In this document: positions 374 to 24,103 of the stretch, one piece after another | Layout of the letters: every line of letters begins with the position of its first letter | Numbering within the stretch: position 1 is the stretch's first letter | Source: Pseudomonas sp. MYb118 | GTDB taxonomy: Bacteria; Pseudomonadota; Gammaproteobacteria; Pseudomonadales; Pseudomonadaceae | Direction of reading: 5' to 3' | Assembly (NCBI RefSeq): GCF_040947875.1 | Contig: NZ_JBFRXN010000003.1 | Span: 558,001-622,000 of the forward strand | DNA: 64,000 nucleotides | Program-made: the position numbers and the translations under genes | The notes under the pieces: generated by a model | What the model was told of the DNA's origin: nothing | The model's database searches: none | Seen by the model: only the letters and a program-made list of their open reading frames with translations

Positions 374-588
374 ACCCCGGCCAGCAACAGCACCAGTTGC
401 ACGATGCCGTACAGCGACAGGGCGAACACCACCGTGAAGAGGATCCCCAGGATCACGAAGTGACTGGGCTTGCCATGGGTGAAGTCCCGGGCCCGGTTTT
501 TCCCGCTCTGCACCCCGAACGCCGCCGCCATCACGCTGTGCAACATTTGCCAGAAGGTTGGCGGTTTGTTGTCGATTGGATCGTCCAT
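370..588 (-). CDS. DUF2970 family small membrane protein
   Basis: A 72-residue protein with a polar N-terminal half, including 'TFWQMLHSVMAAAFGVQS', and one hydrophobic C-terminal helix (about residues 45-70, GILFTVVFALSLYGIVQLVL). This matches the usual size and layout of DUF2970 proteins in Pseudomonas, whose function is unknown. It overlaps the end of the preceding binding-protein gene tail to tail by 4 bp. It is probably a single-pass inner-membrane protein. The family call rests on recognition of the conserved N-terminal segment. Confidence 0.75.
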   Translation of the reverse strand: MDDPIDNKPPTFWQMLHSVMAAAFGVQSGKNRARDFTHGKPSHFVILGILFTVVFALSLYGIVQLVLLLAGV

Positions 589-650
589 AAACCCCTCGTC
601 TCGAAGTAGGCGTGTTGAGCATAGACAATGCCTGTAAACACCGCCCCCCC

Positions 651-754
651 CTGTAGGAGCGAGCTTGCTCGCGATGGTAGATCAGGCAACGCTGGCGTCC
701 TGACACCCCGCGTCATCGTTAGCGACCATCGCGAGCAAGCTCGCTCCTACAGGG
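651..754. repeat. REP inverted pair
   Basis: Two REP units face each other: CTGTAGGAGCGAGCTTGCTC at 651-670 and its reverse complement ending near 754. About 45 bp of loop separates them. It lies between the DUF2970 gene and the DUF6543 gene. Confidence 0.9.
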
Positions 755-839
755 TAAAGGGGAAGGGGAGATAACTATCTACCACCTGCCACTCAGCCGC
801 CCATGATGTGCTGTCGCTCCCACCCAAAGGAGCGCCCAC

Positions 840-2003
840 ATGCCCCATCCCCACGTCACCCACAGCATCCACGCGCCATTGCTCGAACAGTCCATCCCAG
901 ATTGGCTGACCCAGGCCACGCCGCAACATCGTGAGGCACTGAGGAACGCCAACGCGCCGCTACCAGCCTGGTATCGCCAAGCCCCAAGACAACAACGCAA
1001 GGCGCTTGACGATAGCCTGGTCGCCCATTTCAAGGCGCAGAATCAACTGGGCGAGGCCCTGGCCGGGTTGCAGGACATCCACACCTTCGCCGAACCGCTG
1101 CTGCGGCAATGCCTCAAGACCCGGTTCGGGGTCGAGCTGGACGTCAACCAGACCTTCCTGCACCTGCTGCAAACGGTCGGGGTGGGCGCGGTGCTGCCGA
1201 TTGAAATCGGTGCCTTCGAGGTGTCGAAGATGTCATTGCTGCAAGCCGCGCTGCACAACTTCGAAGAAGCCGAGTTCGAACCCGATGCCTTTCATCGCGC
1301 GTCCGGATTTGCCGTTCAATCGGCGCAATCCGCCACGCTGGAGCCCGTCGCGACATCCATGAGCGTGCCGGATTTCATCCAGGCCTGCCGGGCGCTGGAT
1401 CTCGGCGACCAATACCAGCAGCACCTCAAGGGCGTGCTGTACCCCGACGATCCTGCGGCCCTGTACACCCTGCGCGAGCGATTCGACGCCGCGCAGAAAA
1501 CCGCCCTGCGTGCCGCCGCCGAACGGGCGTTGCTGCAAAACGATATCGTGCCGGCCGACCACACTTCGATCCTGGCGATCATCGACGGTGACCGGCAGCC
1601 CCGGCAGGGGGGAAAGCCGATCCGCTTCTGTGAAATGACCCTGATGGACCGCCCGTTGAACGGCTGCATTGGCTTCACCTTCGGCGATCCCGCAGAGGAT
1701 CCCGACGACCTGTTGCTGTACATCCCCGACGACCCTCATCACCCGCTCAAGCGCTACAAGACCTCGCAACTGGAAACAGCCCTCAGGCAGCAGTTCACGG
1801 CCAGGGATGAAGCCGCGCCGGACGACGGCCACCCTACGGCTTATCAGCGCTTCTTTAGCCGCTTTTTGGCCTATTCCGACCGCCCGTACTACTTCAGCCA
1901 GTTCACCGTCGACACCCCCGATGCCAGCTTCACCGACCGGCTGGCCACGCATTTTTCCCTGCTTCACGAAATGGGCTCAGGCCATGGCCGAGCACGAAAC
2001 TGA
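840..2003 (+). CDS. DUF6543 (dermonecrotic-toxin-like) protein, N-terminal part of a split gene
   Basis: A 387-residue frame opened by ATG at 840 behind AAGGAG at good spacing. It begins like the DUF6543 domain of Pseudomonas LRR effector-type proteins ('LEQSIPDWLTQATPQHREAL'). It ends abruptly at TGA 2001-2003 with an unnatural tail (GSGHGRARN). The continuation of the same protein is in another frame from 2036. Dropping one G from the GGG at 1973-1975 gives a natural reading (HEMAQAMAEHETESP). Dropping one base near 2032-2035 then leads into the downstream frame. The pair therefore looks like one gene of about 1,600 codons broken by two single-base insertions, or by sequencing errors. Secretion and target are unknown. 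Confidence 0.7.
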   Translation: MPHPHVTHSIHAPLLEQSIPDWLTQATPQHREALRNANAPLPAWYRQAPRQQRKALDDSLVAHFKAQNQLGEALAGLQDIHTFAEPLLRQCLKTRFGVELDVNQTFLHLLQTVGVGAVLPIEIGAFEVSKMSLLQAALHNFEEAEFEPDAFHRASGFAVQSAQSATLEPVATSMSVPDFIQACRALDLGDQYQQHLKGVLYPDDPAALYTLRERFDAAQKTALRAAAERALLQNDIVPADHTSILAIIDGDRQPRQGGKPIRFCEMTLMDRPLNGCIGFTFGDPAEDPDDLLLYIPDDPHHPLKRYKTSQLETALRQQFTARDEAAPDDGHPTAYQRFFSRFLAYSDRPYYFSQFTVDTPDASFTDRLATHFSLLHEMGSGHGRARN

Positions 2004-2035
2004 GTCACCTTCCACCGCCGCCCACGATCCGCCAA

Positions 2036-5000
2036 GTGGCTAATCCACAACCGTTTCTCGCCCCATTATTCGTGCCGCTGGACAAGGATCGCGAAGACAA
2101 CGTCGATCTCTGGAGCTGCCTGTTCGATCGCTATCGCGAGCGAATGATGGCGGACGCGCGCAGTTACGCCGTGCCCTCGGCCGAGATTGACGCGCGGGTG
2201 CGCAAGCAACTGTTCGCCCGCCTGCTCGACATCGGCATGCTGGTGCTGGGGGCGGTGTCGATGTTCGTGCCGGTGCTGGGTGAAGTGACGATGACGCTGG
2301 TGGCGTGTCAGTTGCTGGAGGAGTCGATTGCCGGGGTGGTCGAGTGGGGCGAGGGCGACCGTATGGCGGCCAAGGCGCATTTGCTCGATGTTGCGCAGAA
2401 CCTGGTGTTGATGGGCGTCACGGCCGGCGTCGGCAAGGGACTGGCGAAGCTGTCCGTGGCACCCGCGCCGGCTGTGATCGAGGACTTGCACCCGGTCACC
2501 TTGCCCGACGGCAACACCCGCCTGAGCCGGGCGGACCTGGCGGGTTATGAAACGCCCGATTTTGCCGCTCCGGCCACCTTCGAACCCGACAGCGGACCGG
2601 ATGCCATGGGCCGCTACGAGTTGGACGACAAGACCTATATCCGCATCGACGGCAAGGTCTTTGAGCAGACCTACGACCGCGACCTCAAGCGCTGGCGGAT
2701 CCGGCACCCCAAAGACCCGCAGGCCTATCAACCCGTGCTGACCCACAACCGGGCGGGCGCCTGGCGCCATGTGCTGGAAAACCCGTTGGCCTGGAACCGC
2801 TTGAAGCTGTTGCGGCGCATCGGCCACCTGAGCGACGCCTGGTCCGACGAGCAATTGCTGCAGATCGCCGACATCAGCGAGACCAGCGACAACGCCTTGC
2901 GCCGCATGCATATGGACAATGGTCTGCCGCCCCCTGAGCTGGTGGATACTTTGCGGCTGTTCACTGCCGAGCGGGATGTCACTCATGTGATCGAGCAGGT
3001 GGTGAGCGGAGCACACATTGACGAGCGTTGCCTGCACGTACTGCCCCTGGTCCCCGAGTTGCCGGGCTGGCCCGTCGGGCGCACCCTGCAAATCTTCGAT
3101 TCCCCTGGGTTGACCGGGGTGCGAGTCGAATACGGCCGTGCAAGCCAGCCGCCGAAACCGGCGATTCGCCTGAGCCGTTTCGACGTGTTGAGCGGACAGA
3201 TGCCGGCGCGCGTTCTCGAGGCCTTGGACGACAGCGAGCGCGCTGAGTTGCTGGGGGCCGATGCCGCGCGGGAGCGGGTCTGGCATCCGCAGGTTTTGCG
3301 TGAGCAGATTGCCGCGGCTGTCCGCGCTCGACGACCGTCGTTGTTCAATCAGTTTTATCGCCACCGTACCCAGGGCTTGCCTCTGATCGACAAGCTGCAA
3401 CGGTTCCACCCCGGGCTGAGCGACGCTGCGGCGCAGGACATACTGGCCCATGCCTCCGGCGGAGACATAACCACACTCAAAAGCACTGACCGGGTGCCGC
3501 GTGCCCTGCACAAGGAGGCTCGCTGCTATGTTCGACGTGGGCGCGCGAGCGGGGCGCGGGCGCGCCAGGCACTCGGCCTGGCCGACGGCGCAGCGGTATC
3601 GGCGCCCCAAGGACCCGGAAAACGTCGCTTCCAGCCACCGCGTCGAATCCGCAAGAACCTGCTGGGTTATCCCGCCAGTGGCGAAGGGATGCTCGGCTCC
3701 TCCGGACTGAACATTGCGTTGGTGCTGCGCTTGCAGCATTTGTATCCGGACCTGGAAATGGCCGAGGCCAACGGTATCGTCCTGGCCTTGATCAGGTCCG
3801 GGCAGAGCGACGCGCAGATCCTGCAGATGCTTGAACAGTTGCGCGAGCAATGGCTGGCGCTCGAGCAAACCCTGGAGAGTTGGGTGACGCAGGGCGGCAA
3901 CGTAGAGCAGAAGGCCGAGGTGGCGCTGAGTTTGCGCAATACCTGGCGCGGCCGGCCTTTCGCCGAAGAAAACGCCGCTTACCGGCAGCTTGAACTGGTG
4001 TGTGACGAGCCATTGCCCACGCTCACCGCAGATTTTTCCCATGTGACGACGTTGCGCTTGCGCGTACCGAGCTCCACCGACCAGCAGATTCGTACGCTGC
4101 TGCGCAATTTTTCCGGGGTGATCAACCTCGACTTGCGCAGCAACCGATTGATCACCAACCCGATTGCCCGTGAAAACGCGGGCCACCTGCTGAACCTCGA
4201 CCTGTCGGATAACCCGCTGTACCAGCTCGATGTCAGCGCCATGACCCAGCTTGAAGTGCTGATCCTGAAGGGCACGCAGTTGCAGGAGTGGCCAACCGGG
4301 GCGGACACCCTGTGGCACCTGGACTGGCTCGACCTGCGTGCCACGCGCATTCGCGAACTGCCTCCCGAGGCCCTGGCGCGTGATGAACTGCTGATCAACA
4401 CCAACCTGAGCGGCGCGCCGTTGTCGGAAACCGCCCGGCAACAATTGCAGTTGGCCTGGCAGCGCTGCGAATCGACGTTGGGCTTGCCCGACGCGACGCT
4501 GGCGCGGTTTTTCCGCGAACCGGTGCCGGAACACACCATACGCCCCTTTGAAAACGGCACGTTGCTCGCCAGTCGATTGCTGCTGTTGCCGCCCAGGCTG
4601 CCTGCCGAACAAAGTACGGCGTCGTTTGTCCGGCGCCTGCGCAGGGTTGATCCCGCGTTGACCGAGGGCGAGGCCATGGCCGTGATCGAGGGGTGGCGTG
4701 TGGGCGTGACGGACGCCTGGGTCAATGCGCATATCGAAGCCTGGGGGCAACGTTTCGAAGCCGTCACCCGCCAATTGAATGGCTGGATTTTCTCCAGGCG
4801 CACGGGCCATCCGCTTTACGGCGGACGCTGGAGTTCCTCGCAGCGGCGCAGTGAGGCGGCAGAGAAAATCCTGGCGTGCTGGAAAAGGGGCTTGCGCGAA
4901 GCGGCTGGCGAGAATGCGAATACGCTGGACTTATCCAACATCGACGGGTTGGGGGAGTTGCCCCAATTGCCTGCCGGGTTCGATCACGTGCAGTCGCTGA

Positions 5001-5659
5001 ACCTGCGCGGCAATGGATTGCAGGAGAATGACCTGGGTGGCTTTCTGCCGGCGTTCAGCCAACTGTGTTCGCTGGACTTGGGCCTCAACCGCTTGGAGCG
5101 CCTGCCCCAGGCCGCTGCTGGCCTGACCCGCCTGCAAGCGCTGGGCTTGTCCAGCAACCGCTTCAGCGACCTGGCGATCCTTGCGCAGGATTTGGGGGCA
5201 AAGCCCCGGCTGGAGACTCTGCGCCTGAGCTACAACCGCATCAAGGCATTCAACGGCACCGACCTTGAGAGCTTGCCTGGCCTGCGTCACCTGGAGCTGA
5301 ATTTCAATCAGTTGAACCGTTTCGACGGCCCCATTCCACCGCTGCTGAACAGCCTGCACCTGAATGGCAACGACCTGCACCAATGGCCCGACGGCGTGTT
5401 ACAGGCACCGAGCCTCGAGGTGCTGAACCTGGCGGGCAATCCGATCAACGAGATACCGGTCGAAGCCTTCGATGGCAGCCACGATCAACTGCTGGTGGGC
5501 ACGCAGTTGTTCGGCATCATGCGCTATCTCTCGACCGACACCCTCAACCGCCTCCTGGGCCACCTCGACCGGGTGGGCAGCAACAGCGCCCTGGGCATTT
5601 CGCGAGACAACATCGAACGATGGCTCGCCAATCCCGAGTGGGTGGCGATGGAGGAATAA
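2036..5659 (+). CDS. DUF6543/leucine-rich-repeat protein, C-terminal part of a split gene
   Basis: A frame of 1,207 codons. The nominal start is GTG at 2036 with no ribosome-binding site, and the frame stays open upstream, so it is the continuation of the gene at 840. In order it has: a hydrophobic segment near residues 60-95 (LDIGMLVLGAVSMFVPVLGE); a long DUF6543 middle; an LRR block near 655-770 (LDLRSNRL, LDLSDNPL, LDLRATRI); a spacer; and a second LRR block near 960-1165 (LNLRGNG, LDLGLNRL, LNLAGNPI). The protein ends soon after the repeats, so the NEL-type ubiquitin-ligase domain found in related effector-like proteins appears absent. The Arg/Ala-rich stretch near codons 490-545 looks like the scar of an internal deletion. 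Confidence 0.65.
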   Translation: MANPQPFLAPLFVPLDKDREDNVDLWSCLFDRYRERMMADARSYAVPSAEIDARVRKQLFARLLDIGMLVLGAVSMFVPVLGEVTMTLVACQLLEESIAGVVEWGEGDRMAAKAHLLDVAQNLVLMGVTAGVGKGLAKLSVAPAPAVIEDLHPVTLPDGNTRLSRADLAGYETPDFAAPATFEPDSGPDAMGRYELDDKTYIRIDGKVFEQTYDRDLKRWRIRHPKDPQAYQPVLTHNRAGAWRHVLENPLAWNRLKLLRRIGHLSDAWSDEQLLQIADISETSDNALRRMHMDNGLPPPELVDTLRLFTAERDVTHVIEQVVSGAHIDERCLHVLPLVPELPGWPVGRTLQIFDSPGLTGVRVEYGRASQPPKPAIRLSRFDVLSGQMPARVLEALDDSERAELLGADAARERVWHPQVLREQIAAAVRARRPSLFNQFYRHRTQGLPLIDKLQRFHPGLSDAAAQDILAHASGGDITTLKSTDRVPRALHKEARCYVRRGRASGARARQALGLADGAAVSAPQGPGKRRFQPPRRIRKNLLGYPASGEGMLGSSGLNIALVLRLQHLYPDLEMAEANGIVLALIRSGQSDAQILQMLEQLREQWLALEQTLESWVTQGGNVEQKAEVALSLRNTWRGRPFAEENAAYRQLELVCDEPLPTLTADFSHVTTLRLRVPSSTDQQIRTLLRNFSGVINLDLRSNRLITNPIARENAGHLLNLDLSDNPLYQLDVSAMTQLEVLILKGTQLQEWPTGADTLWHLDWLDLRATRIRELPPEALARDELLINTNLSGAPLSETARQQLQLAWQRCESTLGLPDATLARFFREPVPEHTIRPFENGTLLASRLLLLPPRLPAEQSTASFVRRLRRVDPALTEGEAMAVIEGWRVGVTDAWVNAHIEAWGQRFEAVTRQLNGWIFSRRTGHPLYGGRWSSSQRRSEAAEKILACWKRGLREAAGENANTLDLSNIDGLGELPQLPAGFDHVQSLNLRGNGLQENDLGGFLPAFSQLCSLDLGLNRLERLPQAAAGLTRLQALGLSSNRFSDLAILAQDLGAKPRLETLRLSYNRIKAFNGTDLESLPGLRHLELNFNQLNRFDGPIPPLLNSLHLNGNDLHQWPDGVLQAPSLEVLNLAGNPINEIPVEAFDGSHDQLLVGTQLFGIMRYLSTDTLNRLLGHLDRVGSNSALGISRDNIERWLANPEWVAMEE

Positions 5660-16104: not shown

Positions 16105-16235
16105 GGCGCTTCCCTCTGTTCTGTCAGGGTGACGGGAGCGCATGCAGGGACCCTGCGTATCGGGCACGCAGAGGTTCGAACAGCGCCCGCCCACCGCGGG
16201 TTTGTTGTTTTCGTGATCGTAACGTCACGTTGTGT

Positions 16236-16432
16236 TGCGGGCCGGTCTCCGGGCTCACGAGGGGCTTGGACCAGAGCCCGAACCTGCAAGAATCGCCTTC
16301 CCATGCCGGTGGCCGGCACAGTGGCTGTGATTCTTCGCTCGCTTACCGTTGCGGGGGCAGCACCGGACTGACATGGCCTTGAGTAAAGCACATGATTCAC
16401 CGGTTTCCCGTTTCACCCTGTGAAGGGCACCC
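16236..16432 (-). ncRNA. Cobalamin riboswitch upstream of cbtB
   Basis: Read on the minus strand, the leader shows the hallmarks of the AdoCbl riboswitch in order: a GGTGAA-type 5' element; GCTGCCCCCGCAACGGTAAG (from 16370 down); the B12-box heart GCCACTG; GGGAAGGCG; and the closing GAGCCCGGAGACCGGCC. It ends about 130 nt before the cbtB start. It is expected to switch off the cobalt-transport/cobE/cobM arm when cobalamin is plentiful. Confidence 0.93.
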
Positions 16433-16493
16433 GTAACAAAGTGTGTAGGAGAGCATGGGGCGGCTTTGCCGTCAATCGAGACCGCGTAGACCC

Positions 16494-16567: not shown

Positions 16568-16628
16568 CGTCCGACCTGCCAGCACAAGAATTTGACCCGC
16601 CCCAACACGATGCGTAGCCTTGTCCCCA

Positions 16629-16816
16629 CGAGGTTCTTCGCCATTGGCGAAGCTAAGAAGGGAACGCGGTCGATGCCGCGGCTGCCCCCGCAACTGTGAA
16701 CGGTGATGTTCGCTGCCACGCCACTGCAAACCCTGCACAACGGGTTCGCGGGAAGGCGCAGCGAATGCCGGGCCCATCGCCCGGCACACTGTCAGCCAGG
16801 AGACCTGCCTCGAAAC
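16629..16816 (+). ncRNA. Cobalamin riboswitch upstream of cobW
   Basis: The plus strand carries a GAGGTTC 5' element, AAGAAGGGAACGCGGT, GCGGCTGCCCCCGCAACTGT, the GCCACTGC box, GGGAAGGCG, and the 3' GTCAGCCAGGAGACCTGCC. All are in canonical order, ending about 110 nt before cobW. It should repress the cobW-cobN-chelatase operon in response to adenosylcobalamin. Confidence 0.95.
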
Positions 16817-16925
16817 AGATTCTCACTACAACCGGGCGGGGTGATCCGGTGGCGAAATGCTTGCGCGCACTTGGATTGCAGCGCTCGTCGTCCCGTATGC
16901 CCGCCACCTTGCCAAAGGGCATCCG

Positions 16926-17987
16926 ATGAAAACACTGGCCAAACTCCCCGTCACCATCGTCACCGGCTTCCTCGGCTCGGGCAAGACCACCTTGCTGCGG
17001 CACATGCTCGACAACGCCGAAGGCCGGCGCATCGCGGTGATCGTTAACGAATTCGGCGAGCTGGGCATTGATGGCGAAATCCTCAAGCAATGCTCCATCG
17101 GCTGCACCGAGGAAGAAGCCGTGGGCCGCGTGTTCGAACTGGCCAACGGTTGCCTGTGCTGTACCGTCCAGGAGGAGTTCTTCCCGGTGATGCGCGAACT
17201 GGTAGCGCGCCGTGGCGATCTGGACCACATCCTCATCGAAACCAGCGGCCTGGCCTTGCCCAAACCGCTGGTGCAAGCCTTCCAGTGGCCGGAAATCCGC
17301 AGCGCCTGCACAGTTGATGCGGTGATCACCGTAGTCGACAGTCCGGCCGTGGCCGCCGGCACCTTTGCCGCATTCCCCGATCAAGTGGACGCCCAGCGCA
17401 AGCTCGATCCGAACCTGGATCACGAGTCGCCGCTGCACGAACTGTTCGCCGACCAACTGGCCAGCGCCGACCTGGTGATCCTCAACAAGGCTGACCTGAT
17501 CAACGCCGAAGACCTGGCTCGTGTGCGCCAGGAAGTCGCCGAGGAACTGCCGCCAGCGGTGAAGATCATCGAAGCCAGCAGCGGTCGTCTGCCGCTGGAT
17601 GTGCTGATCGGCCTGGGCGCCGGTTCTGAGGAGCACATCGACAGCCGCCACAGCCACCACGATCACCACCACGAAGGTGAGGACGATCACGACCACGACG
17701 CGTTCGACTCCATCTCCATCGAGCTGCCCCAGGCCGACGAAAGCCTGTTGCTCGATGCGCTGACCCAGTTGGTGGTGCAGCACGACATCCTGCGGGTCAA
17801 GGGTTTCGCGGCGATCCCGAACAAGCCGATGCGCCTGCTGATCCAGGGCGTGGGCACGCGTTTCGACAAGCACTTCGACCGTAAGTGGAACAGCGACGAA
17901 GCGCGCACCACGCGCCTGGTGCTGATCGGCCAGGAGCTGGACGCGGCGAAACTCGAAGCGCAGCTGCGCGCCGCGCTCAGCGTTTAA
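16926..17987 (+). CDS. cobW: Cobalamin biosynthesis GTPase CobW (COG0523)
   Basis: A 353-residue metallochaperone-type GTPase. It has the P-loop [11 protein letters not shown] near residues 13-23, the metal-binding CLCC motif in 'ANGCLCCTVQEEF', NKADL as the guanine-specificity motif, and a His/Asp-rich loop (SHHDHHHEGEDDHDHD) before the CobW C-terminal domain. I chose ATG 16926 because it gives the family N-terminus 'LAKLPVTIVTGFLGSGK'. An upstream in-frame ATG at 16857 would add 23 atypical residues. CobW is thought to deliver cobalt to the CobN chelatase, which is encoded 3 bp downstream. The riboswitch above probably controls it. Confidence 0.95.
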   Translation: MKTLAKLPVTIVTGFLGSGKTTLLRHMLDNAEGRRIAVIVNEFGELGIDGEILKQCSIGCTEEEAVGRVFELANGCLCCTVQEEFFPVMRELVARRGDLDHILIETSGLALPKPLVQAFQWPEIRSACTVDAVITVVDSPAVAAGTFAAFPDQVDAQRKLDPNLDHESPLHELFADQLASADLVILNKADLINAEDLARVRQEVAEELPPAVKIIEASSGRLPLDVLIGLGAGSEEHIDSRHSHHDHHHEGEDDHDHDAFDSISIELPQADESLLLDALTQLVVQHDILRVKGFAAIPNKPMRLLIQGVGTRFDKHFDRKWNSDEARTTRLVLIGQELDAAKLEAQLRAALSV

Positions 17988-17990
17988 CCC

Positions 17991-20900
17991 ATGCACCTGC
18001 TCAGGACCCAGCCCGGCGGTTTCGTGTCGGATGACAACATTGCCGACCTTGGACAAACCCCCGCTGAGCTGGTGATCCTGTGCAGCGGCGACTCGAGCCT
18101 GGCCTTGCTCGCCGAAGCAGCGCAGCAACTGCCCGACGACTACCCCAGCGTGCGCCTGGCCAACCCGATGCAGGTGCAGAATCACGCCTCGGTCGACCTG
18201 TATGTCGACGAGGTGCTGCGCCATGCCAAGGTCATCCTGATCTCGTTGCATGGTGGCATTGCCTATTGGCGCTATGGCGTCGAGCAAATGATCGAGCTGT
18301 CGCGCCGGGGCGTGCAATTGATTCTGGTGCCAGGCGATGACCGTCCCGATCCCGAACTCAGTGACCTGAGCACGGTTGCTGCTCCAGACCGAGACCGGCT
18401 CTGGCATTACCTGCGCCAGGGCGGCATGGCCAACGCGCTGGACCTGTTTCGCTGCCTGGCCAATCGCTGGCTGGGCCGTGATTACGCGTGGGGCGAGCCG
18501 CAAACCCTGCCACGTACGGCGATCTACCACCCACGTAAAAGCCCGGCGGCCCTGAGCGACTGGCAAGCCGACTGGCAGGGCGGTCAGCCAGTGGCGGCGG
18601 TGCTGTTCTACCGCTCGCACTTGCAGGCGGCCAACACCGGGTTCATCGACGTGTTTTGCCAGCGCCTGCAAGCGGCGGGGCTCAATCCCTTGCCGGTGGC
18701 GCTGGCCAGCCTGAAGGAGCCCGGTTGCCTGGCGGTGGTCGAGGACTGGCTGGACGAGGTCCAGGCGTCGGTCATTCTCAACACCACCGGCTTTGCCCAA
18801 TCCAGCCCGGAGGCGCCGCACCTGCGTCCGTTCCGGCGCAACATCCCGGTGATCCAGGCCATCTGCGCCCAGGACAACGAACCGGGCTGGCGCGACAGCG
18901 AGCAAGGTCTCGGCCCGCGGGACCTGGCGATGCACATCGCGCTGCCGGAACTGGACGGGCGCATCATCAGCCGGCCGATCAGCTTCAAGGACCTGGCCTG
19001 GCGCAGCGAGCGCAGCCAGTCCGACGTGGTGTGTTACCGGGCGGCTCCGGAGCGCATGGATTTTGTCGCCGAACTGGCGCGACGCTGGGTCGAACTGGCG
19101 CGGGTGCCCAACGGCGACAAGCGCATTGCCCTGGTCCTGGCCAATTACCCGACCCGGGATGGGCGCATTGGCAATGGCGTCGGCCTCGACACCCCGGCGG
19201 CGGCGCTGAACATCCTGCGCGCCCTGCGTGAGCAGGGTTATCCGCTGCCGGCCGAGCTGCCGGACAGCGGCACGGCGCTGATCCAGCAACTGCTCGGCGG
19301 CGTCAGCAATGATCTGGACAGCCTCGATCAGCGGCCCTGCCAGCAAAGCCTGGCGCTGGATGACTACCAGCGCCTGTTCGACGCCTTGCCCGAGGCCAAC
19401 CGCCAGGCGGTGCTGGAGCGCTGGGGCACGCCCGAGCAAGACCCGATGTACCGCGGCGGGCGAATGATGGTCGCCGGGCTGCGCCTGGGCCTGACCTTCG
19501 TCGGCATCCAGCCGGCACGGGGTTATCAGGTTGACCCGAGCGCGGTCTATCACGACCCCGACCTGGTGCCGCCACACGGTTACCTGGCGTTCTATTTCTG
19601 GTTGCGCCAGGCCTACGGCGCCCATGGCGTGATCCACGTCGGCAAGCACGGCAACCTGGAATGGCTGCCGGGCAAGGGCGTCGGCCTGTCAGAAAACTGC
19701 TGGCCGGACGCGCTGCTCGGCCCGCTGCCGAACATCTACCCGTTCATCGTCAACGACCCGGGCGAGGGCGCCCAGGCCAAGCGGCGTACGCAGGCGGTGA
19801 TCATCGACCACCTGATGCCGCCGCTGACCCGCGCAGAAACCTACGGCCCGCTGCGCAACCTGGAGCTGTTGGCCGACGAGTATTACGAAGCGCAACTGCT
19901 CGATCCACGGCGCGCCCGGGAATTGCAGCGCGACATCCTGCAACTGGTGCGCGACAGCCACATCGACCGCGAACTGCAACTGGACGAACCCCTGGACAGC
20001 GACGCCGACGCGGCGATCTGGCTGCCCCGGCTGGACACCTACCTGTGCGACTTGAAGGAATCGCAGATCCGCGATGGCCTGCACATCTTCGGCGAATCAC
20101 CGAGCGGACGCCTGCGCATCGACACACTGCTGGCGCTGCTGCGCATTCCCCGCGGCGACGGGCGCGGGGCGCAGTCGAGCCTGTTGCGGGCGTTGGCCAA
20201 GGCGCTGGAGTTGGGTTTCGACCCGCTCGATTGCGCACTGGCCGAAGCCTGGACCGGGCCGCGGCCGGAGGCGTTGCTGGCGGTCAGTGCGGAGCTGTGG
20301 CGCACGGCGGGGGATACCCGTGAGCGGTTGGAGTTGTTCGCCGCGCAACTGATCTCACAAACGCTGAACGCACCCCTTCACTGTGGGAGCGAGCCTGCTC
20401 GCGATGGTGTATCAGACACATTGGAGGTAACTGACAGACCATCGCGAGCAGGCTCGCTCCCACAGAATCCAAACCCAAATCAGGGGTCGGGTTGGGCAGA
20501 GGTCGAAGCCATCCTCGACCACCTGCACGAAGTCGTCGCCCCACGCCTCGACGCCTGCGGCCCCGCTGAAATGCGCGGTCTGCTCGATGCCCTCAGCGGT
20601 CGCTTCGTCCCCGCCGGCCCCAGCGGCGCCCCCAGCCGTGGTCGCCTCGATGTGCTGCCCACCGGGCGCAATTTCTACTCGGTGGACGTGCGCAACCTGC
20701 CCACCACCACCGCGTGGCGTATCGGCTTCCAGTCGGCCAACCTGATTCTCGAACGGCACCTGCAGGACCATGGCGATCACCTGCGTCAGCTCGGTCTGTC
20801 GGTGTGGGGCACCGCGACCATGCGCACCGGCGGCGACGACATCGCCCAGGCCATGGCCCTGATGGGCGTGCGGCCGGTCTGGGCCACGGGCAGCCAGCGG

Positions 20901-21857
20901 GTCGACGACTTCGAGATCCTGCCGTTGAGCCTGCTCGATCGGCCGCGGGTGGATGTGACCTTGCGCGTGTCCGGGTTCTTCCGTGATGCGTTCGCCAACC
21001 TGATCCGCCTGTTCGATGCGGCAGTGCAGGCAGTGGCCGCGCTCGACGAACCGGACGACCTCAACCCGCTGGCAGCCAAGGTCCGTGCCGAGCGCGCAAG
21101 CCTGGTGCAGGCGGGGCTGGATGAAGATGCCGCAAGGCGCCAGGCCGGCTGGCGGATTTTCGGTGCCAAACCGGGGGCCTATGGCGCCGGGGTGCAGGGC
21201 GCCATCGACGGTCGCCTGTGGCAAAGCCGCGAAGACCTGGCCGAGGTGTACCTGAATTGGGGCGGCTATGCGTACGGCGGTGCCGACGAGGGCACCGCCG
21301 CCCGCGAGCAGTTCGCCCAGCGCCTGAGCCAGGTGCAGGCGGTGTTGCAGAACCAGGACAACCGCGAGCACGACCTGCTCGATTCCAATGACTATTACCA
21401 GTTCCAGGGCGGCATGCTCGCCGCCGTGGAAAGCCTCGGCGGAGCAGCGGCGGCCAGTTACCATGGCGATCACAGCCAGCCGGACCTGCCGAAGATCCGC
21501 ACGCTCAAGGAAGAACTGAACCGGGTGATCCGTTCGCGAGCGGCCAACCCGAAGTGGCTCGAGGGCGTCAAGCGCCACGGCTACAAGGGCGCGTTCGAGA
21601 TGGCAGCGACGGTCGACAACCTGTTCGCCTTCGACGCGACCACCCAGTTGATCGACGATCACCACTACGCCTTGCTGGCCGACGCCTACCTGCTCGACCC
21701 GGCGACCCGGGATTTCGTGCGCGAGCACAACCCCCACGCCCTGCGCGACATGACCGAGCGCCTGCTCGAAGCGCAGCAGCGGGGCATGTGGCAGGAACCG
21801 GGCGAGTACCGCGAGGCGCTGGAAAACCTGTTGCTGGATATAGAAGAAGATGGCTGA
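17991..21857 (+). CDS. cobN: Cobaltochelatase large subunit CobN
   Basis: A 1,288-residue CobN/BchH-type subunit, which binds hydrogenobyrinate a,c-diamide and inserts cobalt with the AAA+ subunits. Recognisable stretches are GGIAYWRYGVEQM early on, 'IHVGKHGNLEWLPGKG' in the middle (the typical HGNLEWLPGK block), and LNWGGYAYGG near the C-terminus. It starts 3 bp after cobW. An REP pair at 20381-20465 lies inside the coding region. It is translated in frame as about 28 foreign residues near 797-825 (CGSEPARDG...SRAGSLPQ), between two normal CobN blocks. That insert lengthens the protein compared with what I expect for the genus. Confidence 0.96.
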   Translation: MHLLRTQPGGFVSDDNIADLGQTPAELVILCSGDSSLALLAEAAQQLPDDYPSVRLANPMQVQNHASVDLYVDEVLRHAKVILISLHGGIAYWRYGVEQMIELSRRGVQLILVPGDDRPDPELSDLSTVAAPDRDRLWHYLRQGGMANALDLFRCLANRWLGRDYAWGEPQTLPRTAIYHPRKSPAALSDWQADWQGGQPVAAVLFYRSHLQAANTGFIDVFCQRLQAAGLNPLPVALASLKEPGCLAVVEDWLDEVQASVILNTTGFAQSSPEAPHLRPFRRNIPVIQAICAQDNEPGWRDSEQGLGPRDLAMHIALPELDGRIISRPISFKDLAWRSERSQSDVVCYRAAPERMDFVAELARRWVELARVPNGDKRIALVLANYPTRDGRIGNGVGLDTPAAALNILRALREQGYPLPAELPDSGTALIQQLLGGVSNDLDSLDQRPCQQSLALDDYQRLFDALPEANRQAVLERWGTPEQDPMYRGGRMMVAGLRLGLTFVGIQPARGYQVDPSAVYHDPDLVPPHGYLAFYFWLRQAYGAHGVIHVGKHGNLEWLPGKGVGLSENCWPDALLGPLPNIYPFIVNDPGEGAQAKRRTQAVIIDHLMPPLTRAETYGPLRNLELLADEYYEAQLLDPRRARELQRDILQLVRDSHIDRELQLDEPLDSDADAAIWLPRLDTYLCDLKESQIRDGLHIFGESPSGRLRIDTLLALLRIPRGDGRGAQSSLLRALAKALELGFDPLDCALAEAWTGPRPEALLAVSAELWRTAGDTRERLELFAAQLISQTLNAPLHCGSEPARDGVSDTLEVTDRPSRAGSLPQNPNPNQGSGWAEVEAILDHLHEVVAPRLDACGPAEMRGLLDALSGRFVPAGPSGAPSRGRLDVLPTGRNFYSVDVRNLPTTTAWRIGFQSANLILERHLQDHGDHLRQLGLSVWGTATMRTGGDDIAQAMALMGVRPVWATGSQRVDDFEILPLSLLDRPRVDVTLRVSGFFRDAFANLIRLFDAAVQAVAALDEPDDLNPLAAKVRAERASLVQAGLDEDAARRQAGWRIFGAKPGAYGAGVQGAIDGRLWQSREDLAEVYLNWGGYAYGGADEGTAAREQFAQRLSQVQAVLQNQDNREHDLLDSNDYYQFQGGMLAAVESLGGAAAASYHGDHSQPDLPKIRTLKEELNRVIRSRAANPKWLEGVKRHGYKGAFEMAATVDNLFAFDATTQLIDDHHYALLADAYLLDPATRDFVREHNPHALRDMTERLLEAQQRGMWQEPGEYREALENLLLDIEEDG
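20381..20465. repeat. REP inverted pair inside the cobN coding sequence
   Basis: A complete pair: CTGTGGGAGCGAGCCTGCTC from 20381 and its inverted partner ending CCCACAG at 20465. It sits within the open reading frame of cobN without a stop or frameshift. Confidence 0.95.
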
Positions 21858-21876
21858 CCAGTCCTCATCCCATGCC

Positions 21877-21962
21877 CTGTGGGAGCGAGCCTGCTCGCGA
21901 TGGACTGTCAGCCGGCTCCGATGTGACTGACACTCCATCGCGAGCAGGCTCGCTCCCACAGG
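21877..21962. repeat. REP inverted pair
   Basis: A pair between cobN and the chelatase ATPase gene, with CTGTGGGAGC at 21877 and the inverse ending at 21962. It is nearly the same as the copy inside cobN. Confidence 0.9.
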
Positions 21963-22005: not shown

Positions 22006-23007
22006 ATGACCCACACCCCCCATTTCCCCCTCTCCGCCGTGGTCGGCGCCGACGACTTGAAACTCGCCCTGTACCTGACCGCCATCGACCCGAAAATCGG
22101 CGGTGTGCTGATCGAAGGCCCGCGGGGCATGGCCAAGTCCACTCTGGCCCGCGGCCTGGCGGACCTGTTGGCCAGCGGCCAGTTCGTCACCTTGCCCCTG
22201 GGCGCCACCGAAGAGCGTCTGGTCGGTACCCTCGACCTTGACGCCGCCCTGAGCGAAGGGCGTGCGCAGTTCTCGCCCGGCGTGCTGGCCAAGGCCGATG
22301 GCGGCGTGCTGTATGTCGATGAGGTCAATCTGCTGCCGGATCACCTGGTTGACCTGCTGCTCGACGTGGCGGCCAGTGGCACCAACCTGATCGAGCGGGA
22401 CGGCATTTCCCATCGCCACCCGGCCCGGTTCGTGCTGATCGGCACGATGAACCCGGAGGAGGGCGAGTTGCGCCCGCAACTGCTCGACCGCTTCGGCCTC
22501 AACGTCGCCCTCGGGGGGCATACGGCGCCGGCGCAACGGGGCCAGATCATCCGCCGCCGCCTGGATTTCGACAGCGACCCACAGGGTTTCTGTGCGCACT
22601 GGGAGGCGCAGCAACAGGCGCTGCGTGAGCGCTGCGAGCAGGCGCGGCGGCAGTTGGCGAACATCCCGCTGGACGACGAAGCCCTGGCGCAGATCACCGA
22701 GCGTTGCTTTGCTGCAGGTGTCGACGGCCTGCGTGCCGACCTGGTCTGGCTGCGGGCGGCCCGGGCCCACGCGGCGTGGCGCGGGGCGGACGCGATTGCC
22801 GGGGAAGACATCAATGCGGTGGCTGATTTCGCCTTGCGCCACCGGCGTCGCGAACCATCGCCGCCAGCACCGGAGCAACCCGCCCAGGCGCCTTCCCGGC
22901 AAGACAACCAGCCTGGCACCGGCCAGGGCCAATGGGGCGAAATGCCGCCCCAGGCCCTGCCGGTCGGTGCTCGGCGTGAAGTGCCGAGCTGGCCAAAAAA
23001 GCCCTAG
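22006..23007 (+). CDS. AAA+ chelatase small subunit (ChlI/CobS-like), zero-frame product
   Basis: A 333-residue magnesium/cobalt-chelatase ATPase. It has Walker A GPRGMAKST (about residues 38-46), Walker B VLYVDEVNLLP, the arginine-containing ELRPQLLDRFGL sensor region, and the C-terminal helical lid, followed by a Pro/Gln-rich linker (PPAPEQPAQAPSRQDNQPG). It starts at ATG 22006, 43 bp after an REP pair and downstream of cobN. The frame ends PSWPKKP-stop at TAG 23005-23007, immediately after the slippery heptamer. Normal termination would yield this small subunit, which powers cobalt insertion with CobN. The gene also appears to encode a longer frameshift product, listed separately. Confidence 0.9.
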   Translation: MTHTPHFPLSAVVGADDLKLALYLTAIDPKIGGVLIEGPRGMAKSTLARGLADLLASGQFVTLPLGATEERLVGTLDLDAALSEGRAQFSPGVLAKADGGVLYVDEVNLLPDHLVDLLLDVAASGTNLIERDGISHRHPARFVLIGTMNPEEGELRPQLLDRFGLNVALGGHTAPAQRGQIIRRRLDFDSDPQGFCAHWEAQQQALRERCEQARRQLANIPLDDEALAQITERCFAAGVDGLRADLVWLRAARAHAAWRGADAIAGEDINAVADFALRHRRREPSPPAPEQPAQAPSRQDNQPGTGQGQWGEMPPQALPVGARREVPSWPKKP

Positions 23008-23666
23008 GCATTCGCCCCCGGTCACACGCGGGGGCGAATGCCAGACCCCGCGCCGGGCACCTGGAGCACGGCAAACAAGGCAAACGACGGGCCGCGCGTG
23101 AAGGCTCGGTCAACTGGCCAGGCACCTTGCTCAAGGGCCGACCGCGTCAACGCCAGGACCTTGAGTTCCAGTTGCGCACCCGTTCGCCTCATGAGGTGTG
23201 GCTGGTGATCGTCGACGCCTCGGCCTCGACCCGTCGCCATCGGGCGCTGAGTGATGCCAAGGGGCTATTGGCGCAACTGTTCGATGACGCGTACCGCCAG
23301 CGCGCACGCCTGGCGCTGTTGACGGCCAGCGGCGCCGCGCCGAAATGGCAGGTGCAGGGGCTGAAGGCCTCACGCGGCCTGGGCCACTGGCTCGACAACC
23401 TCGGCGCCGGTGGCGGCACGCCGTTGCTGGCGGCGTTGCACGAAGCCGAGCGTTGGATGAGCGTGCGCAAAAAACGCTTTCCGGCCGAGCAACAGCGACT
23501 GCTGGTGGTCACCGATGGACGTTTGAAGGATGGCCCGACCCTGGCCCCGCTGGATTGCCCGGCCTTGCTGATCGACATCGAGCGCGGCCCGATCCGCCTG
23601 GGCCGCAGCAAACGCCTGGCGCAGCAGTTGCAGGCCGAGTATCGGCACATCGACGAACCCCTGTGA
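22006..23666 (+). CDS. chlD: Chelatase medium subunit (ChlD/CobT-like) made by -1 frameshift
   Basis: A -1 slip at AAAAAAG (22995-23001) joins the AAA+ part to a VWA domain, predicting 553 residues. The -1 frame continues with a basic linker (GKQGKRRAAREGSVNWPGTL), typical of ChlD-type proteins, then a VWA domain. The VWA has a full MIDAS: DASAS in LVIVDASASTRR, GGGTPLLAAL, and VTDGRLKDGP. This frame has a stop at 22977-22979 and no ATG or GTG start before the VWA domain. The first possible initiator is TTG 23127, which would discard the linker. The fused protein matches the I-VWA architecture of a medium subunit. No separate cobS or cobT gene is present in the window. Confidence 0.82.
22995..23042 (+). 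promoter_or_regulatory. Programmed -1 ribosomal frameshift signal
   Basis: The heptamer A-AAA-AAG (22995-23001) is in register with the zero frame (CCA AAA AAG CCC TAG). After 5 nt comes a perfect 14-bp hairpin: arms GGCATTCGCCCCCG (23007-23020) and CGGGGGCGAATGCC (23029-23042), with an 8-nt loop. The heptamer, spacer and stem resemble the dnaX signal of E. coli. There is no T-tract, so it is not a terminator. No clear Shine-Dalgarno-like stimulator is seen upstream. Confidence 0.88.
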
Positions 23667-23719
23667 ACACCGCCCCATTGTGGGGGCTGCGAACACCAAA
23701 CCGATGTGGGAGTGCATTC

Positions 23720-24103
23720 CCCTGTGGGAGCGGGCTTGCTCGCGATGGTCGTCAACGGTGACGCGGGTCGTCTGATACCCAGCGGTGTCTGGGCTTGCAT
23801 CGCGGGCAAGCCCGCTCCCACAGTTGACCGCATTCCCCTGTGGGAGCGAGCCTGCTCGCGATGGTCTTCAACGATGACGCGGGCTGCCTGACGCCCAGCG
23901 GTGTCCCGGCCAACATCGCGGGCAAGCCCGCTCCCACAGTTGACCGCATTCCCCTGTGGGAGCGAGCCTGCTCGCGATGGTCTTCAACGATGACGGGGGC
24001 TGCCTGATGCCCAGGGGCGTCCCGGCCACCATCGCGAGCAGGCTCGCTCCCACAGTGGGCAGTGAACACCGGGCCTTTGTGGGAGCGGGCTTGCCCGCGA
24101 TGG
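23720..24103. repeat. Tandem array of three REP pairs plus a single REP
   Basis: Three inverted pairs (about 23722-23823, 23838-23939, 23955-24055) repeat with a period near 116 bp. They share the inner sequence as well as the ends (ATGGTCTTCAACGATGACG in copies 2 and 3). A fourth, unpaired unit lies at 24078-24103. The array fills the gap between the chelatase and the OYE reductase. I see nothing else in it. Confidence 0.93.

Follow-up and report, generated by a model that had tools for sequence, protein, structure and literature searches.

Conservation of a probable programmed −1 frameshift in a chlD-type cobaltochelatase gene of Pseudomonas

Introduction

The CobNST scheme comprises a large, a medium, and a small subunit. 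For chlD-type genes, programmed frameshifting has been proposed in the literature, as a sequence-only reading of the locus studied here had noted, and the feature has already been described for Pseudomonas (PMC3711429, PMC5009743, PMC9227772). Antonov et al. 2013 reported a magnesium chelatase cluster of 23 frameshifted genes, Pseudomonas among them, and found that cassettes with 11, 9, and 7 A shifted frame in E. coli at 63, 40, and 10%, respectively (PMC3711429). A 2016 review names Pseudomonas together with an A_AAA_AAR site and a stem in P. protegens, and describes the sequence of the structure as not strongly conserved (PMC5009743). Kuznetsov et al. 2022, who place P. aeruginosa in stage 8 of their Table 1, proposed that one chlD makes both subunits (PMC9227772).

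A second well-described system, dnaX, resembles the gene analyzed here in three respects, namely, the A_AAA_AAG heptamer (a likeness that the sequence-only reading had pointed out correctly), a downstream hairpin, and two products with a common N-terminus (PMC3711429). The outcome of the shift is reversed between the two, as frameshifting leads to the short product in dnaX and to the long product in chlD.

The locus described below clearly exemplifies a single bacterial gene from which ribosome slippage should give two enzyme subunits, and the genus that carries it is convenient for laboratory work. Genes of the fs-chlD type with programmed −1 frameshifting are reportedly treated in Antonov 2020 (Mol Biol Evol). 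Supplements and that article aside, we saw no experiment in the literature available to us that tests the A6G-plus-stem signal of Pseudomonas directly. Our own additions are modest, namely, how deeply the signal is conserved in the genus, the pairing kept in the stem, and single-frame relatives that have no recognizable small subunit, which together make the necessity of the short product directly testable.

Results

The window, a stretch of 64,000 nucleotides, carries on the + strand cobW, cobN, and then the chlD gene in two overlapping frames. A cobalamin riboswitch at 16614..16826 (+ strand; Rfam RF00174, 96.5 bits) precedes cobW-cobN-chlD, and a second cobalamin riboswitch at 16223..16449 (− strand; RF00174, 100.8 bits) faces divergent genes. 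The cobW gene (+ strand; scanned as 16920..17987, with the listed open frame starting at 16857) matches TIGR02475 at 541 bits, above cut-off. The cobN gene (17991..21857, + strand) encodes the large cobaltochelatase subunit of 1288 aa and matches TIGR02257 at 1738 bits, with a cut-off of 822. On the BchH model, the same protein reaches 681 bits, under the cut-off of that model; the gene adjoining chlD is accordingly CobN (1738 versus 681 bits) and not the BchH/ChlH large subunit that would stand next to it in a Mg-chelatase ChlIDH system. The gap between cobN and chlD contains a 36-nt REP-like inverted repeat (GTGGGAGCGAGCCTGCTCGCGATGG type; 21876-21962) with arms that are 97% complementary, and REP-like palindromic repeats of the GTGGGAGCGAGCCTGCTCGCGATGG type are also seen at ~23700-23900, downstream of chlD.

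The zero frame of chlD (22006..23007, + strand) is an open reading frame for a ChlI-like AAA+ protein of 333 aa, the short product, with matches to AAA_5, AAA_lid_2, TIGR02442, and TIGR02030, the two TIGR matches falling below their cut-offs. Its nearest solved chains are ChlI/BchI. A basic linker and a VWA domain make up the −1 frame (23001..23666, + strand), which would complete a long product of 553 aa. A VWA_2 match lies at ~23202-23519 of this frame, the nearest solved chain is the BchD VWA domain 2x31, and the letters of its MIDAS motif are DASAS / GGGTP / TDG. On the 641-position model TIGR02442 (putative cobaltochelatase), the two halves match collinearly, at 88-340 and 458-641. The joined 553-aa protein has its best match to this model at 481.5 bits, below the curated cut-off of 779 for membership.

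At the 3′ end of the AAA+ frame, the sequence reads CCA AAA AAG CCC TAG. The heptamer A_AAA_AAG (22995..23001, + strand) stands in the X-XXY-YYZ register for a −1 shift, and the zero-frame stop TAG follows at 23005..23007 (+ strand). The −1 frame is closed upstream by a stop at 22977..22979 (+ strand) and ends at 23664-23666. Five nucleotides past the heptamer, a stem-loop begins (23007..23042, + strand) that has a 14-bp stem with perfectly paired arms (23007-23020 and 23029-23042) and an 8-nt loop; a 69-nt stretch is predicted to fold at −37.5 kcal/mol (z −4.2), and none of 200 shuffles is equally stable. The sequence-only reading had described the heptamer in this register, a perfect 14-bp hairpin at this spacing, the stop at 22977-22979, a −1 frame made up of a basic linker and a VWA domain with MIDAS motif, and products of 333 and 553 aa, and all of these were recovered here. 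Its statement that the −1 frame has no ATG or GTG afterwards is literally wrong, as start-type codons in that frame include TTG at 23127, GTG at 23196 and 23205, and ATG at 23457, among others. The DASAS codons begin at ~23214; the ATG and the GTGs are thus located at or within the VWA core and are implausible starts for an intact domain, whereas TTG 23127 is a possible one. The heptamer AAAAAAG occurs in three copies in the 64-kb window (2.4 expected) and is not unusual by itself, so that the weight of the argument is carried by register, stop, stem, and conservation.

Conservation was read in 129 loci, one per genome (110 plus 19), drawn from the 234 gene-bearing genomes among 249 of the genus. 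These loci were chosen partly for divergence and partly for failure of a strict pattern and are therefore not a random sample; G133 and G173, cut by contig ends, were left out, and for the other gene-bearing genomes the evidence is the strict pattern and the protein match alone. A_AAA_AAG is intact in 125 of the 129 loci (108/110 and 17/19), with a run of exactly six A in 121 of these 125 and of seven in 4. The −1 relation holds over the whole gene in 122 of 129 loci (105/110 and 17/19), and in all 122 the −1 frame extends upstream past the heptamer without a stop. Three further genomes (G161, G163, and G244) keep the heptamer and have a frame break elsewhere in the gene. The heptamer is damaged in the remaining four, with five A in G034, G052, and G215 and AGAAAAG in G080; further frame breaks in chlD or cobN occur in G034, G052, and G080, and none were seen in either gene of G215. 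No locus among the 129 combines its whole AAA+ half with the VWA half in one frame. The closest to a fused gene is G034, in which a single frame stays open from midway through the AAA+ part as far as the end and residues 260-330 match in another frame.

The strict pattern (TGGNNAAAAAAGYYNYRRGC) is present in 220 of the 249 genus genomes, with the positions of some of the hits inspected. Five of these (G082, G184, G222, G223, and G241) are without chlD, and their matches are therefore off-target. Nineteen gene-bearing genomes are without the pattern; 18 of them were read, giving 14 with A6G in other flanks and four with damaged sites, and the nineteenth, G076, was left out as it is cut by a contig end. 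A named set consisting of the 80 best among 589 relatives yielded 76 readable loci that overlap partially with the genus loci. Within these best 80, all 63 readable loci of the Pseudomonas group show the −1 relation with A6G (two of them are labeled Paucimonas and Pantoea), and four more are cut by contig ends.

Synonymous change was analyzed in 104 of the 110 loci, leaving out the five that lack the whole-gene −1 relation and the truncated L044. Codons 325-333 form the 9-codon window with the fewest synonymous differences in these 104 orthologues, at 0.32 of expectation, and the next lowest window is at 0.71. The two lysine codons of the heptamer show 0.00 versus 0.36 expected, a value that arises partly by construction since the 104 genes were chosen with an intact heptamer. 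In the stem, single codons are low (335, 337, and 344-346), and the two 9-codon windows that cover it are ordinary (0.84 and 0.82).

Pairing in the stem was evaluated in an alignment, A1, in which the 108 loci are represented by their 83 distinct 42-nt sequences (the 19 later loci were left out). Stem cells are paired in 79.7% of cases, compared with 31-48% with one arm slid along the other; 11 of the 14 pairs have changed on both sides (46 such cells), and none of 500 shuffles reaches any of five stem-pairing measures; the paired structure was defined from the window sequence, and these counts lean toward it. With the arm slid by −3, 9 pairs and 37 cells still have changes on both sides (versus 11 and 46), so that the covariation carries less weight than the proportion of cells that are paired. 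In 46 of the 83 sequences, the two bases of the first stem pair (columns 25-60) do not pair. Most outer pairs hold one pair type in at least 71 of 83 sequences, and pair 30-55 and the inner pairs vary; that the outer pairs of this gene mostly keep one pair type differs from the 2016 review, in which the structure is said not to be strongly conserved in sequence (PMC5009743). The heptamer-stem spacer is 5 or 6 nt in orthologues.

RNAalifold did not find a consensus stem in the 83-sequence alignment (−0.15 kcal/mol, with two other pairs). When sequences were folded singly, the 46 nt downstream gave a median z of −3.97 over 90 distinct sequences versus 0.00 over 178 control windows, the latter taken, for a quarter of the 90, from the AAA+ part. 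A z below −2 was obtained for 87% of the downstream folds and 3% of the controls, and 6 of the 90 downstream sequences fold no better than z −1. A simple duplex-energy scan of 108 loci did not reveal a clear Shine-Dalgarno-like stimulator (median −3.0 versus −2.5 at controls). The sequence-only reading had named an alignment of orthologues as a check, and the outcome supports it: the heptamer, a spacer of 5 or 6 nt, and the stem are kept, changes occur on both sides of the stem, and synonymous change is lowest at the slip site. Orthologues with one uninterrupted frame, which it had listed as a sign of sequencing error, number 0 of 129 in the genus.

Presence and absence of cobN and chlD agree in 249 of 249 genus genomes, with 234 having both genes and 15 neither (thresholds, E ≤ 1e-30 for the AAA+ half and E ≤ 1e-150 for cobN). 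Three of the 15 genomes without both genes are only 73-78% complete, and a distant CobN-like protein is encoded in five of the 15. One such CobN-like protein of ~1450 aa is encoded at 5429-9772 of L126 (G060), with similar ones in G082, G179, G184, and G241; by eye, it has a signal peptide and a C-terminal membrane segment, and it is reminiscent of HmuS/BtuS-type proteins.

Separate chlI, cobS, and cobT genes, for which the sequence-only reading had called for a search, were not found in the window genome (G000), where CobT has no match and the best CobS match is 29 bits against a cut-off of 558. Above their cut-offs, CobT was found in 0 of 249 genus genomes and CobS in 0 of the 30 genus genomes searched. 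Replacement of fs-chlD by a cobS-cobT pair within the genus was also considered and is unsupported, as CobT-like matches occur in 12 of 249 genomes and all lie below the cut-off. Six of these 12 genomes are without both chlD and cobN and six keep both, so that the pair is not a simple substitute for fs-chlD. A CobS-like plus CobT-like pair, below the cut-offs, is seen at 4430-7158 of L136 (G060) and also in G041, G042, G184, G221, and G241, all six genomes being without canonical cobN and chlD; the neighbors in L136 show, by eye, likenesses to a TRAP transporter and thiC.

Beyond the genus, a close ChlI-like half (E ≤ 1e-40) is present in 19 of 321 genomes of the class, the window genome included. 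The 18 other loci comprise four with a −1 transition (A10 in L137, A7G in L140 and L141, and A6G in L142), nine with AAA+ and VWA parts in a single frame, one of which (L139) is apparently broken within the VWA part, and five with a separate ChlI, the VWA match lying further on. All 18 genomes have a PF02514 gene, a family match that cannot separate CobN from BchH. Two of the nine single-frame genomes have CobS above the cut-off (G299 and G543). In the seven others (G441, G304, G527, G520, G266, G276, and G274), no second ChlI was found and no CobS above the cut-off, which argues against a small subunit being strictly required; G441 and G274 have weak CobS-like matches (26-38 bits), and G274 also has a short ChlI-like fragment nearby. 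The PF02514 scores of these seven genomes are 1280-1386 in six and 1132 in G266, the last within the range of the five separate-ChlI genomes; the window CobN scores 1328.

The named set, again limited to the 80 best among 589 relatives, contains 13 readable loci from outside the Pseudomonas group. Four Caballeronia loci have A7 with a −1 relation, one Denitromonas locus has A6G with a −1 relation, and eight are single-frame genes from Neptuniibacter, Motiliproteus, Marinomonas, Psychromonas, and uncultured bacteria. In the Caballeronia loci (L245-L248), the A7 site is followed by different sequences in which stems look possible by eye. The single-frame chlD genes of Neptuniibacter, Marinomonas, and Psychromonas share the AAA+ and VWA parts, and their order, with the window gene; compared at the chlD locus alone, they differ in having one frame of 548-632 aa and no slip site near its end. 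One single-frame locus, L147, belongs to a 0.4-Mb genome (G266) that has a CobN/BchH-family gene and in which neither a second chlI nor a match for cobS was found; the linker of its chlD contains runs of 10 and 11 A, and slippage there might yield a short product.

Discussion

The anatomy of the site, its conservation, the pairing of the stem, the synonymous constraint, and the co-occurrence with cobN make it very probable that the gene is a cobaltochelatase gene of the chlD type, that it is expressed through a −1 programmed ribosomal frameshift, and that its products partner CobN. The joining of a ChlI-like and a ChlD-like part by such a shift is what the sequence-only reading had proposed, and the conservation of heptamer and stem and the constraint at the slip site support it. 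In the mechanism envisaged, ribosomes would translate the AAA+ frame, and some of them, paused by the stem-loop, would slip back by one nucleotide, from A AAA AAG to AAA AAA G, to continue through the linker and VWA domain to give the 553-aa protein, with the remaining ribosomes stopping at TAG to release the 333-aa AAA+ protein. The long protein would be the medium (ChlD/CobT-like) and the short protein the small (ChlI/CobS-like) partner of CobN, and the ratio of the two would be set by slip frequency. We infer slippage in the cell, its rate, a shared transcript, and the roles of both proteins from the features listed above, and an obligatory place for the 333-aa product as small subunit is likewise our interpretation.

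The gene has the features of described fs-chlD genes: a ChlI-like AAA+ domain in the zero frame and a VWA domain with MIDAS letters in the shifted frame, an A-rich slip site in −1 register ahead of the zero-frame stop, a downstream RNA structure (predicted; RNAalifold gave no consensus stem), orthologues that keep the frame transition (heptamer in 125 of 129 loci), and cobN, with a separate small-subunit gene not found. Gene type and shift direction are also alike. The difference lies in the length of the A run, since the cassettes tested in 2013 had 11, 9, and 7 A and the window gene has A6G (PMC3711429). Of the dnaX-type signal, the gene has A_AAA_AAG and the hairpin; dnaX additionally has an upstream Shine-Dalgarno-like stimulator (PMC3711429), whereas the simple scan of chlD gave no clear one. 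CobNST shares the division into large, medium, and small subunits (PMC9227772) and differs in having separate CobS and CobT, which in the genus rise above their cut-offs in 0 of 30 and 0 of 249 genomes, respectively.

The alternative that survives best shares the mechanism and departs from the preferred reading in the role of the short AAA+ product, which would be non-essential, either adjusting the amount of the long protein or arising as a by-product. This role is suggested by the seven genomes in which single-frame chlD and a CobN/BchH-family gene occur with no second chlI and no CobS above cut-off, although a weaker AAA+ relative could act as small subunit there. The genus, in contrast, keeps both stop and slip site when one indel would fuse the frames, and not one of 129 loci is fused, which argues for selection for both products; we regard a dispensable short product as unlikely.

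Slippage on the A run could instead occur in transcription and yield a −1 mRNA. The run is homopolymeric, poly-A runs can slip in transcription (PMC3711429), seven A are found in 4 of 125 intact loci, and the distant relative L137 has A10 at the equivalent place. The same paper cites runs of >7 for transcriptional slippage (PMC3711429), however, and the runs here are of six and rarely seven, with exactly six in 121 of 125 intact loci, which makes this origin of the shift very unlikely. The near-fixed spacing of the stem and the X-XXY-YYZ register are what ribosomal slippage predicts.

It is less likely still that the frames are never joined and the VWA part initiates by itself, for example at TTG 23127, which lies ahead of the complete VWA domain and has a weak AGG a few bases upstream. 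Independent initiation would leave the kept heptamer, the low synonymous change, and the stem unexplained, and it does not sit well with a −1 frame open back through the heptamer in 122 of 122 loci or with relatives outside the genus that carry both parts in one frame. A sequencing error or pseudogene in the window genome, brought to mind by the few genus assemblies with broken copies and by the fact that run-length changes are common assembly errors, is refuted by the orthologues, which show the −1 relation and the heptamer in 122 of 129 loci, with 3 more showing them locally, and its probability is negligible.

With a programmed ribosomal frameshift as the preferred reading, the single-frame relatives raise the tentative possibility of two motor designs: a mixed AAA+ ring built from short and long products in Pseudomonas, and, in some other gammaproteobacteria, a large subunit driven by a ring of the single-frame long protein alone. 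If this were true, the frameshift would set the composition of the ring and not merely save a gene.

A further arrangement of the chelatase parts is seen in L046 (G175), where at 543-5288 cobN runs without a stop into the AAA+ part, so that cobN and the ChlI-like half form one frame of 1582 aa. A −1 shift could put all three chelatase parts of L046 in one translation, and translation of the ChlI-like part may nevertheless begin separately, at a GTG at 4293.
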